DNA of 34,741 bases from Chlamydiia bacterium. GTDB taxonomy: Bacteria; Chlamydiota; Chlamydiia; Chlamydiales; SM23-39. This document shows, piece after piece, positions 31,125 through 34,245 of this stretch (its first letter is position 1; each line of letters starts with the position of its first letter). The notes below the pieces were generated by a model. That model made no database searches. It saw only the letters and a program-made list of their open reading frames with translations, and had not been told where the DNA came from. The stretch spans positions 1 through 34,741 of the forward strand of contig JACRBF010000019.1 in the NCBI GenBank assembly GCA_016213175.1. Direction: 5' to 3'. Both the position numbers and the translations under genes were made by a program.

Positions 31125-31199
31125 GGCCCCATCGTCTAGCCCGGTCTAGGACACCGGATTTTCATTCCGATAACAGGGGTTCGAATCCCCTTGGGGTCA
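31125..31199 (+). tRNA. tRNA-Glu (anticodon TTC)
   Basis: Acceptor GGCCCCA pairs with TGGGGTC, followed by discriminator A. The D-stem is GTCT with GGAC, the T-stem AGGGG with CCCCT around TTCGAAT. The anticodon loop TTTTCAT gives TTC. The first anticodon-stem pair appears as C-A (CCGGA against TCCGA), a mismatch. CCA is not encoded. tRNA-Lys starts four bases later. Confidence 0.95.
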
Positions 31200-31202
31200 T
31201 TT

Positions 31203-31274
31203 GAGACTTTAGCTCAGTGGTAGAGCATCTCACTTTTAATGAGAGGGTCGATGGTTCGAACCCATCAAGTCTCA
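31203..31274 (+). tRNA. tRNA-Lys (anticodon TTT)
   Basis: All stems pair perfectly: GAGACTT with AAGTCTC, GCTC with GAGC, TCTCA with TGAGA, GATGG with CCATC. The loop CTTTTAA gives anticodon TTT. CCA is not encoded. It is the last core gene before the integrase and so the best candidate for an attachment site. Confidence 0.97.
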
Positions 31275-31316
31275 AATCTTTATCTAGCACAATTCCACGT
31301 ACATAAGCTTTAATCG

Positions 31317-31344
31317 GTAGACTCAAAATAAAGTTTGAGTCTAC
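31317..31344 (+). terminator. Perfect 11-bp hairpin after the tRNA pair
   Basis: GTAGACTCAAA and TTTGAGTCTAC flank a six-base loop ATAAAG, followed by AATTTTA. It could end the tRNA transcript, although the T-run is short. Its place between tRNA-Lys and the integrase gene would also fit a recombinase or excision-related site. The remainder of 31275-31426 holds only the integrase leader. Confidence 0.45.
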
Positions 31345-31426
31345 AATTTTAGCCAAATGGTGCAACGAAGAAAACATTTAACCAGCACACACGCCAATCG
31401 CTCAAACCTCAACTAAAAGGAAGAGC

Positions 31427-32488
31427 ATGGCATCTGTGCATAAGCGAAAAGAAGGCGGTTGGCGCGCTGTCATCCGAATGAATGGCTCTCCAACTGTTTG
31501 CGAAACATTCGACCGCAAACAAGAAGCCGACGATTGGGCCAAAGAAACTGAACGCCGCATCAAACTCGGTGGTTTTAATTTCTCTGCCCATAATAAACAT
31601 CATACCTACGCCGACCTACTGCATCGCATGGAAGGAGATGGTGTTTTCGATCATCAACATTCTTTCAAAAACTGCCGCTCGCAGTTTGACTACTGGAAAC
31701 AGCGGCTCGGCGCCTATTCCCTCATCCATATCACCCCCGAACTCATTGTCGAAGAACGCAAAATCCTCGTCGGTTCACCGCTTCCTGACGGCTCCAAACG
31801 CAGTCCTTCTACCATCAACCGCTATACTGCTGTCCTTTCTGCCACTTTCGGCTATGCTGTCAAAAAGCTTCGCTGGATTGTTGAAAATCCCTGTCGTACG
31901 CTGTCAAAGTTGAAAGAAAGTTCAGGGCGTGATCGCATCCGCAAGAACGAAGAAATCACCCGTCTTCTCGATGCTTGTAAGCAAAGCAAATCGTCCCTTC
32001 TCTATCCCATTGTTCTCTTCGCCATCACTACAGGCGCCCGTCGTGGAGAAAGTCTCAAGCTTGAATGGCGTCATGTAGATCTCGAAAAAGGCCTTGCGTT
32101 CCTCACAGAAACAAAAAACGGCCGCCCACGTAGTGTTGCCTTGTCCGATTCTGTCATCGCCGAATTCAAAGCCCTTTACAGTCTTCGCAATCCAACCAAG
32201 CTCCTTGTGTTCGCTAGCAAAACAGCCTTCGGGCAAATCGATATTACGAAAGGCTGGATGCAAGCTGTTCAAAGAGCCGGTCTCATCGATTACCATTTCC
32301 ATGACCTTCGGCACCAATTTGCTACTTTAGCAGCTGGACAGGGAGCTTCCAACGTCGAGTTGGCCACAGCTATGGGTCATCGCACTCTTTCTCAATTGCT
32401 TCGCTACTCAAATCTCTACGCCAAGAACAGTAAAAAATTTAGTGGTCATATCTCAGAGAGCATTCTCAAAGGAAGTACCCATGAATAA
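31427..32488 (+). CDS. Tyrosine recombinase (phage-type integrase)
   Basis: Site-specific recombinase of the integrase family. An N-terminal arm-type or SAM-like DNA-binding region covers about 1-165, and the catalytic domain about 170-345. The catalytic residues can be placed: R205 in TGARRGES, K230 in TKNGRPR, H292 and R295 in HDLRHQFA, H318 in MGHRT and the nucleophile Y327 in LLRYSNLY. All are present, so it should be active. AGGAAG precedes the ATG. Its position 152 bases after tRNA-Lys fits insertion of a mobile island at a tRNA gene. The stop overlaps the next start by eight bases (ATGAATAA), which ties its translation to the nuclease gene, an unusual pairing. Confidence 0.93.
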   Translation: MASVHKRKEGGWRAVIRMNGSPTVCETFDRKQEADDWAKETERRIKLGGFNFSAHNKHHTYADLLHRMEGDGVFDHQHSFKNCRSQFDYWKQRLGAYSLIHITPELIVEERKILVGSPLPDGSKRSPSTINRYTAVLSATFGYAVKKLRWIVENPCRTLSKLKESSGRDRIRKNEEITRLLDACKQSKSSLLYPIVLFAITTGARRGESLKLEWRHVDLEKGLAFLTETKNGRPRSVALSDSVIAEFKALYSLRNPTKLLVFASKTAFGQIDITKGWMQAVQRAGLIDYHFHDLRHQFATLAAGQGASNVELATAMGHRTLSQLLRYSNLYAKNSKKFSGHISESILKGSTHE

Positions 32489-33548
32489 AGAACTTTCAAC
32501 ATTGTCGCATCGCGCTGCGACAATCTTGCCGCAAGGCCTGATCGACGAGCTTCGCTCGATGATCGATCAGACAAAACAGTCTATTGCAGTCTCTGTAAGT
32601 GCCCAGATGGCAATGCTTTACTGGCATATCGGCAATCGAGTGCGTAAAGAAATTTTGAGCGGTCAGCGAGCCGAGTACGGGCAAGAAATTGTCGCCACAG
32701 TGTCGCGACAATTGACCTCCATATATGGCAAGGGATTCTCTGACAAGAGTTTGCGTCGCATGATCCAGTTTGGAGAGGTTTTCCCTGACGAGAAGATTGT
32801 CGCATCGCTGCTGCGACAATTGAGTTGGACGCACTTTACATTCCTGATCCCTATCAAAGACCCTCTTAAGCGCGATTTTTACGCTGAAATGTGTCGTATT
32901 GAGAAGTGGAACGTACGCACTCTTGATAAGAAGATTAACTCCATGCTCTTTGAGCGTACGGCGCTCTCCAAAAAGCCGGAATCTCTAATTGACGCGGAAA
33001 TCGCGCTGCTTCGCAAAGAAGATCAGCTCTCCCCCGATCTGGTTTTCCGTGATCCCTACATCCTTGAATTTCTCAATCTCGATGATCGATACGTAGAAAA
33101 AGATCTTGAAGATGCCATCATGCGCGAGCTCGAGCAATTCCTCCTTGAATTCGGAGTCGGTTTTACTTTCATGGCTCGTCAAAAGCGTATCGTAGTAGAC
33201 AATATCGACTTCCATCTCGACCTTCTCTTCTTCCATCGTCGTCTTCGAAGGTTAGTGGCCATCGAGTTGAAAGCAGGCGATTTTCGGCCAGAATACAAAG
33301 GACAGATGGAACTCTATCTTCGCTGGCTTGATAAATACGAACGGCAGCCTAACGAGGAATCTCCTATCGGCCTCATCCTCTGCACAGGCAAAAATCATGA
33401 GTGCATCGAACTGCTCGAACTTGATAAAGCAGGCATCCATGTTGCTGAATATCTCACGGCATTACCTTCTAAAGAAGCGTTGCGTCAGCAGTTGCAGCAG
33501 GCAAGCAAACGTGCACGTCGTCGTCTAGAGGAGGAGGCGCATGAGTAG
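32481..33548 (+). CDS. DUF1016 (YhcG) family PD-(D/E)xK nuclease
   Basis: YhcG-type proteins combine an N-terminal DUF1016 helical domain with a restriction-like nuclease fold and are widespread in mobile and defence regions; their natural role is not settled. Here the N-domain spans about 17-165 (MAMLYWHIGNRV; YGQEIVATVSRQL; LSWTHFTFLIPIKDPLKRDF; FYAEMCRIEKWNVRTL). The nuclease domain covers about 190-340, with the metal-binding residues D247 and E262-L-K264 in IDFHLDLLFFH and LVAIELKAGDF intact. The length of 355 residues is complete. AGGAAG precedes the ATG at 32481. The start overlaps the integrase by eight bases, and the stop overlaps the next small gene by eight bases. Three palindromes lie inside the N-terminal coding part. 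Confidence 0.92.
   Translation: MNKELSTLSHRAATILPQGLIDELRSMIDQTKQSIAVSVSAQMAMLYWHIGNRVRKEILSGQRAEYGQEIVATVSRQLTSIYGKGFSDKSLRRMIQFGEVFPDEKIVASLLRQLSWTHFTFLIPIKDPLKRDFYAEMCRIEKWNVRTLDKKINSMLFERTALSKKPESLIDAEIALLRKEDQLSPDLVFRDPYILEFLNLDDRYVEKDLEDAIMRELEQFLLEFGVGFTFMARQKRIVVDNIDFHLDLLFFHRRLRRLVAIELKAGDFRPEYKGQMELYLRWLDKYERQPNEESPIGLILCTGKNHECIELLELDKAGIHVAEYLTALPSKEALRQQLQQASKRARRRLEEEAHE
32501..32820. repeat. Three copies of a palindrome ATTGTCGC-n-GCGACAAT inside the DUF1016 gene
   Basis: Copies lie at 32501-32524 (9-base arms, 6-base spacer), 32687-32713 (9-base arms, 9-base spacer) and 32796-32820 (9-base arms, 7-base spacer). Copies two and three are in the same frame and encode IVA followed by RQL, which is conserved in the family. 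Copy one is in another frame and falls in the variable N-terminus. That difference suggests nucleotide-level similarity, not only protein conservation. Confidence 0.6.
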
Positions 33549-33756
33549 TCCTCTTGACGAAGCCAGTGCAATGCTTGTGCAGGAGATGGAGGAACTGCAC
33601 CAGAAAAAAGCCCTCATCCAGGCAGCAGACTTGCAAAACTCCATGATAGGCTCAATTCCTCCCGAGGAAAATACAGAAAAAGCCCTGAAATATGAACGCT
33701 CCATTCAAAAGTCCATTTTTCAGAATCTTTTCCTGCTACTGTCTCTGTCCAGGTAG
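33541..33756 (+). pseudogene. Small third gene of the int-yhcG cassette, 3' end replaced by IS66 sequence
   Basis: The frame begins with an ATG overlapping the yhcG stop (ATGAGTAG) and encodes 71 residues. The first 65 or so are charged and helical (LDEASAMLVQEMEELHQKKA; KALKYERSIQKSIFQNLFLL), resembling small helical proteins that carry a KYERSIQKSIFQNL-like motif next to mobile genes; I cannot name the family. From about 33733 the DNA is the antisense of the IS66 transposase, so LSLSR and the stop codon come from foreign sequence. The native protein was probably longer. It may still be made as a truncated product. Confidence 0.6.
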
Positions 33757-34245
33757 GGCATCGTAGGGTTCCCAGCGATCTGTGACGAGGATTCGATCTC
33801 GTTTATCCCCTAGCAGTTCACGGGCTGCCTGAGCACCCCGACTCGCAGAAATCATAAACCCAACGGCTTTTGCGGTAGCACACTGCCAAATCCAACGTTT
33901 TTTGCTTCGTTTATACCAACCGGTTTCGTCAACATAGCAGAGGTCCGCTGTCTTAATCTCACTCATAAGGCTCTTATAGTGCGCATCCACAGCATCGGAA
34001 AAATGATTGGCAACATTGACGCTGGTTCCCAGAGTGGTCTTGGTGCATAAAAGCTCCTGCAGAATAGCTATTGCCTTTCTGATCGTCACATTCCCTTTAG
34101 TCGCCAACACGACTATCCAAGAGCGGATATTTGGTCCGTATGTTTTACGACTAAGAGCCTTCGGGAATTGGCCTAAGTTGTCACAGCCGCAGCCTTTACA
34201 ACGACAGCTCCATCTCCTGTGCTCTTCTACAATAGGCTTAACGGG
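33736..34245 (-). mobile_element. Fragment of an IS66-family transposase gene
   Basis: An uninterrupted frame of 169 codons encodes the IS66 zinc-finger segment (EEHRRWSCRCKGCGCDNLG with FPKALSRKTYGPN) and the front of the DDE domain: VDETGWYKRSKKRWIW carries the first catalytic Asp, and RGAQAARELLGDKRDRIL then VTDRWEPYDALPGQRQ the second. The last third, with the catalytic Glu, is missing; the frame stops at 33736, where the DNA changes to the small gene at 33541. Upstream, a TAG at 34246-34248 breaks the frame, and 34249-34331 shows only short open pieces in other frames. The gene is cut at both ends and cannot encode an active enzyme. Confidence 0.88.

Follow-up and report, generated by a model that had tools for sequence, protein, structure and literature searches.

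What does a DUF1016/YhcG nuclease gene do on a mobile element, and do the genes that overlap it form one system with it? Both questions are raised by contig JACRBF010000019.1 of the Chlamydiia bacterium assembly GCA_016213175.1 (1.19 Mb in 61 contigs, about 86% complete), analyzed here over a stretch of 34,741 nucleotides (the window), in which a tyrosine integrase gene, a DUF1016/YhcG gene and a short open reading frame follow each other beside a tRNA-Lys gene. An earlier description of this DNA, made from its letters alone (the sequence-only reading), had taken the three genes for a self-contained mobile unit, possibly for defense or element maintenance. Based on the comparison of homologous genes, we propose with good confidence that the DUF1016/YhcG proteins are site-specific DNA-binding nucleases having their cognate site within their own coding sequence, and would in this sense recognize their own genes.

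The window gene (32481-33548, plus strand, 355 amino acids) encodes a predicted ParB/Noc-like N-terminal DNA-binding domain followed by a C-terminal PD-(D/E)XK nuclease. Both family models are matched above their cut-offs (DUF1016_N, PF17761, E=5e-44, 150.3 bits versus a cut-off of 32.8; YhcG_C, PF06250, E=4e-47, 160.5 bits versus 32.5), and the PD-(D/E)XK residues D247 and E262-L-K264 are present, with D247 and K264 invariant in an alignment of 109 sequences. The protein is a full member of the family (PF17761 plus PF06250, COG4804, PDC-S02), with which it also has the mobile and restriction-modification-linked contexts in common. Its C-terminal domain is similar to nucleases of the RecB/MGME1 and Holliday-junction types (including 1ob9), and a nuclease domain with likeness to Holliday-junction enzymes was predicted for the family in 2005 (PMC1189080). 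Deletion of yhcG is synthetically lethal in combination with alleles of parE, dnaN and dnaB, and its product was found in association with HsdMRS, McrABC and integrases (PMC2672614). In the open-access papers found on the family, the N-terminal part is called an unknown helical domain and no DNA site is mentioned, and no solved DUF1016 structure was found by sequence search.

Within the window gene, three copies of a palindrome of the form ATTGTCGC...GCGACAAT were found, none of them assigned to a strand: P1 (32501-32524, ATTGTCGCATCGCGCTGCGACAAT), P2 (32687-32713, AATTGTCGCCACAGTGTCGCGACAATT) at codon ~74, and P3 (32796-32820, ATTGTCGCATCGCTGCTGCGACAAT), 108 nucleotides downstream of P2 and centered on codon 110. 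P2 and P3 share a reading frame, while P1 is read in another (TLSHRAATI). When the gene was shuffled synonymously, a symmetry at least as high was reached in only 1 of 2000 shuffles for P1, 2 of 2000 for P2 and 0 of 2000 for P3. The pattern TTGTCGC-N4-12-GCGACAA has three matches in the whole assembly, all in this gene, and a relaxed pattern gave the same result; an interspersed genomic repeat (REP-like, i.e., resembling repetitive extragenic palindromes) was rejected for this reason. Across 234 Chlamydiae genomes, two degenerate patterns retrieved 14 distinct sites, all but one of them in DUF1016 genes or recognizable remnants of these. The exception is a perfect DUF1016-type palindrome (TGGCCAACAAGTTGTTGGCCA, L282:1759-1779) with no recognizable DUF1016 gene around it, which, with its short reading FGQQVVGQL, may be all that is left of such a gene, or else a site standing on its own. 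One exact site compared with 2.9 million viral contigs had two matches only, both in DUF1016 genes, so that a promoter or phage target elsewhere was rejected as well; a second exact site had no match in the viral contigs. In a few Chlamydiae, the DUF1016 gene has additional copies of its own palindrome close to its end (L153 and L150, near gene nucleotide 1052; L127, near nucleotide 1095).

P3 is the site found family-wide. The sample, 205 distinct DUF1016 genes, was drawn from genomes of Chlamydiae, from plasmids and viral contigs and from a scan across GTDB; the null model consisted of synonymous shuffles that preserve each protein and its codon use. At codons 109-110, a palindrome of ~25 base pairs (bp) reaches 10.35 of 12 dyad pairs versus 6.38 in the shuffles (t about 42 over the 205 genes), and the sole other comparable symmetry peak, at codons 73-74, is weaker (t about 7.6). 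The center lies at codon 110 in 201 of the 205 genes (180 odd and 21 even palindromes), and a score of at least 9 of 12 is reached by 182, which contain at least 60 half-sites. Among further plasmid genes from Actinobacteria, Cyanobacteria, Bacteroidota and Proteobacteria, 11 of 12 have the palindrome at the same place, Ilyobacter being the one without it. Of 95 genes of the close family, 28 have a second palindromic copy with their own half-site within 3 kb, almost without exception at codon ~74, versus 3% for the half-sites of other genes, and a strong P2 is seen in L043, L239 and L182, whose P3 is weak or missing. The encoded peptide is itself moderately conserved, as an I-V-x-x-L-x-R-Q-L helix repeated at codons 74 and 110, which could make the palindrome a by-product of this helix and of codon bias. 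This explanation retains hardly any probability, being refuted by the synonymous shuffles, which keep peptide and codon use and give 6.4 and not 10.4 pairs; moreover, the symmetry survives under very different peptides (IVVSLIRQL, IASALRTQL, ICYTLCSKL), and P1 is read in another frame. Selection on the palindrome at the level of DNA, beyond the needs of protein and codon use, is thus shown by computation.

A palindrome in a transcript can also fold, and its fixed position in the reading frame would suit an RNA hairpin in the mRNA acting as attenuator, ribosome stall or translational control. In such a hairpin G-U pairs would be tolerated, yet the close clade has 32 G-T mismatches, 23 of which fall at the innermost pair, versus an expectation of 108, and 9 A-C mismatches versus an expectation of 134; mismatches that G-U pairing could accommodate are avoided no less strictly than A-C ones. 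No CAG, from which a G-U pair would result, occurs opposite the ATT at pair 11. The symmetry also extends to the pairs on either side of the one central base, positions that could not pair in the loop of an RNA hairpin. Since G-T mismatches are avoided like any other and the symmetry runs to the center, the selected signal lies in the DNA; the hairpin or attenuator is largely refuted and is left with very little probability. Nor would it predict the co-variation with DNA-contacting residues described below.

The base pairs of the half-site co-vary in two clades with residues of the protein that lie outside the stretch encoded by the palindrome, namely bp 7 with residue 89, bp 6 and bp 5 with residue 93, bp 8 with residue 92, bp 3 with residue 117 and bp 4 with residue 120. 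Arg89 is found in all 53 G.C cells at bp 7. In the close clade, bp 6 is G.C with Arg93 (62) and T.A with His93 (25); in the other clades, bp 5 is C.G with Arg93 (42) and A.T with Tyr, Asn, Ile, Thr or Phe93 (34). All these pairings appear chemically sensible. Under phylogenetic control, with 79 non-overlapping sister pairs, the associations remained for bp 7 with 89 (p=1e-9), bp 6 with 93 (p=2e-7) and bp 8 with 92 (p=2e-6), each of these being the best residue in the whole protein. In the same test bp 3 was also associated with a few residues of the nuclease domain, and its contact is therefore less certain than those of 89, 92 and 93. It is conceivable that neighboring codons co-vary by linkage. 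However, non-contact columns beside the palindrome score 0.6-0.8, like distant columns, versus 3.9-4.9 for the contacts, and the P2 sites, 108 nucleotides away, follow the same code (bp 6 with residue 93, p=1.6e-7), so that simple linkage was excluded as an artifact. The same pairings bear on the explanation that symmetry alone matters, the palindrome being a cruciform or Holliday-junction target. The likeness of the nuclease domain to Holliday-junction enzymes (PMC1189080; 1ob9) and the wide variation of the half-sites would fit such a target, but if shape alone were read, individual bases should not co-vary with residues of the helices, and we regard such a target as very unlikely.

AlphaFold2 models place helices at residues 88-100, 104-111 and 116-122 with high confidence, the first and the last at a predicted local distance difference test score (pLDDT) above 90, and the N-terminal faces of these two carry the co-varying residues. 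The predicted recognition helix 88-100 is encoded at 32742-32780 (plus strand), with residues 88, 89, 92, 93 and 96 co-varying with half-site bp 5-8, and helix 116-122 at 32826-32846 (plus strand), with residues 117 and 120 co-varying with bp 3-5. When the model of the N-terminal domain was compared by Foldseek, all the confident matches (probability of at least 0.8; the top Noc/ParB matches at 0.8-0.98) were to Noc/ParB. The Pfam family HTH_ParB (PF17762) ranked second, with 25 of 111 members matching at E<=1 (best 1.4e-4; the window protein is not among the 25), and hhalign aligned the W-x-H...W-x-x-R-x-L of DUF1016 with the M-G-H...V-R of ParB. The N-terminal domain thus appears ParB/Noc-like in its modeled fold and weakly so in sequence. 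In ParB/Noc, residues 173 and 201 read the outer and inner bases of the parS half-site (PMC7383237); DUF1016 residues 89 and 117 are likewise 28 positions apart, and here too the first would correspond to an outer and the second to an inner base.

In the E. coli alleles sampled, the number of in-frame copies ranges from one to three. In K-12, yhcG contains three palindromes 39 nucleotides apart, which arose by in-frame peptide insertion; an O157 allele has one perfect palindrome and another E. coli strain two. Because the copies differ at outer positions, the code seems looser in this species. The gene is present at least in part in 4434 of 5426 complete E. coli genomes; in O104:H4 (L293:1501-2302) it is truncated at about 405 bp beside a transposase, and in BL21(DE3) only the first 406 bp are matched.

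How would such a site be used? Physical binding of the protein to the palindrome is considered very likely. The N-terminal helix-turn-helix domain would bind, presumably as a dimer, the ~25-bp palindrome at codon ~110 and, in the window gene, also at codon ~74 and near the start codon, with the outer part of the half-site contacted by helix 88-100 and the inner part by helix 116-122. Bound within its own reading frame, the protein may block its own transcription and that of downstream operon genes (the third gene in the window; elsewhere hsdS/hsdR and others), and this built-in operator would travel with the mobile nuclease gene. Autoregulation by the intragenic site would be the most likely effect of binding, although we give it only about an even chance. 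The main rival, which we consider possible but doubtful, is that of a self-addressed nuclease, in which the palindrome would serve for loading, in the manner of parS, or for cleavage, the protein nucleating on DUF1016 genes, its own or those of competitors, and using its nuclease there; element competition, gene conversion and copy control are examples of what this might serve. It would be consistent with the invariance of D247 and K264, with a fold like that of ParB, which loads at parS, with sites being almost confined to DUF1016 genes or remnants, and with the carriage of these genes on plasmids, phages and integrase elements, besides chromosomes, in many bacterial phyla. (A single-protein scan found no viral relatives; an alignment-based scan of viral contigs found some.) On the other hand, cleavage of the cell's own chromosomal copy would be costly unless restrained, and paralogues within one genome avoid shared half-sites no more than by chance.

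Several points weigh against a self-cognate site read in this manner. A good palindrome is missing in some genes (Ilyobacter and a few Chlamydiae). P2 and P3 within one gene sometimes differ, and the E. coli copies differ at bp 7-9, which leaves the recognition code incomplete. Contacts at 120 and 124 come mostly from the close clade, and the reading of the site by the recognition helix and a second helix comes from co-variation, not from binding. The likeness to ParB is weak in sequence (hhalign E=0.006, probability 6%), and the Foldseek E-values of the N-domain model are all above 0.1. Finally, no result separates regulation from other uses of the putative binding.

As for the neighboring genes, the three reading frames and both of their 8-base overlaps described in the sequence-only reading were confirmed. 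The integrase gene (31427-32488, plus strand, 353 amino acids, intact; PF00589, E=2.7e-24) overlaps the DUF1016 start with its stop at 32481-32488 (ATGAATAA, plus strand), and the DUF1016 stop overlaps the start of the third gene at 33541-33548 (ATGAGTAG, plus strand). The proposal that the three proteins are made in fixed proportion is a conjecture. The third frame (33541-33756, plus strand, 71 amino acids, no Pfam family) is present, but it does not encode an intact small protein: homology to the 99%-identical locus L067, in which the third gene has 217 amino acids and begins with the same 8-base overlap, stops at 33575, so that ~11 codons survive as the remaining 5' end (33541-33575, plus strand). 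Elsewhere the third gene is intact, with homologues in L067, L053 (372 amino acids), L054 (282) and L058 (374). The break had been ascribed to IS66. However, ~160 nucleotides of unrelated sequence (33576-33735, in frame with the third-gene start, ELHQKKALIQAADLQNSMIGS...) precede the IS66-type transposase remnant (33736-34110, minus strand; PF03050, E=1e-11), which is therefore not directly at the break.

Regarding the order of the genes in other genomes, an integrase directly upstream of DUF1016, nearly always overlapping, was found in about 15 of 23 close Chlamydiae homologues (integrases 50-90% identical), and a distant, unrelated integrase subfamily is likewise upstream in about 23 proteobacterial, plasmid and phage loci. 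The overlap is mostly of 4 nucleotides, and of 8 in four loci (the window, L067, L041 and L049). A homologous third gene occurs only in a few Chlamydiae and is otherwise replaced: a different family stands in its place in L044, L049 and L055, and neither type has a Pfam match. In Chlamydiae integrase elements, an alternative third gene of about 229-250 amino acids without Pfam match was also seen downstream of DUF1016 (L073:4178-4864, L078, L084). Other DUF1016 genes are located between hsdM and hsdS, beside hsdS, type III mod/res or GmrSD, in conjugation operons, or alone. As an example, an Aeromonas plasmid (L275:3983-10558) has two tandem methyltransferase-DUF1016 units with identical protein accessions inside a type I restriction-modification operon. 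Thus, the integrase-DUF1016 pair is a recurrent module, and the trio is not a fixed system, since other DUF1016 genes sit in type I/III restriction-modification or conjugation operons, or alone; of the self-contained mobile unit that had been suggested, the recombinase-DUF1016 part stands and the fixed trio does not. A fixed defense or maintenance cassette of integrase, nuclease and small helical protein would fit the recurring overlaps of integrase and third gene with DUF1016 and the PADLOC label of the nuclease (PDC-S02, a phage-defense candidate, E=1.2e-127), from which, together with the neighbor genes, a defense role is only suggested. Given a third gene that is a remnant in the window, third-gene families that differ and a trio absent from most homologues, we consider such a cassette improbable.

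The tRNA-Lys (TTT) gene (31202-31275, plus strand, ARAGORN) is the probable attachment site of the integrating element; no second tRNA-Lys attachment copy was found in the window or the assembly. Among public loci, the nearest that was found belongs to a Chlamydiae metagenome assembly, and its DUF1016 protein is 99% identical. The same element is present at tRNA-Lys, with another left flank, in a second Chlamydiae genome (L067:4700-6990 versus window 31197-33575), where the situation is the reverse of that in the window, the integrase having a ~730-bp internal deletion and the third gene being intact.

That a DNA-binding protein can have a site inside its gene is already known from single cases, as in Bacillus subtilis, where parS is found inside the gene of Spo0J itself. 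ParB/Noc and DUF1016 resemble each other in the predicted fold of the DNA-binding part and in having a palindromic site; in contrast to ParB/Noc, DUF1016 has a nuclease domain at the other end, no ParB/Srx CTPase domain was found in the window protein by Pfam, and the site is ~25 bp long, differs between family members and is tied to one codon position within the gene that encodes the protein. Controller (C) proteins of type II restriction-modification systems are DNA-binding proteins with a palindromic operator on their own operon, often together with the restriction-modification genes. They resemble DUF1016 in the DNA-binding protein, the palindromic site on the own operon and the restriction-modification link, but the DUF1016 site is in the coding sequence instead of the promoter, and the protein that would bind it belongs to a nuclease family. 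Homing endonucleases are likewise mobile nucleases with a long, rare sequence tied to their own gene; their homing site is interrupted by the gene, whereas the palindromes within the DUF1016 reading frame are intact. To our knowledge, a family-wide, presumably self-cognate site at a fixed codon has not been described in a nuclease family, and neither the intragenic palindrome nor the recognition code is mentioned in the open-access literature searched.

The function of DUF1016/YhcG, open since the 2005 prediction of its nuclease domain (PMC1189080), becomes directly testable, as the built-in DNA address can be used directly in a laboratory strain to assay binding and cleavage. With its 60 or more half-sites, the family also provides a protein-DNA recognition code made by nature, and it illustrates, over its whole breadth, how a protein sequence is molded by a DNA site which the gene has to keep. 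More tentatively, a DUF1016 gene may combine a nuclease with an exact DNA address at a fixed codon, protein and site evolving as one unit. If true, this would be a self-addressed system without known parallel, by which a gene could find, regulate or attack its own copies and its rivals on mobile elements.

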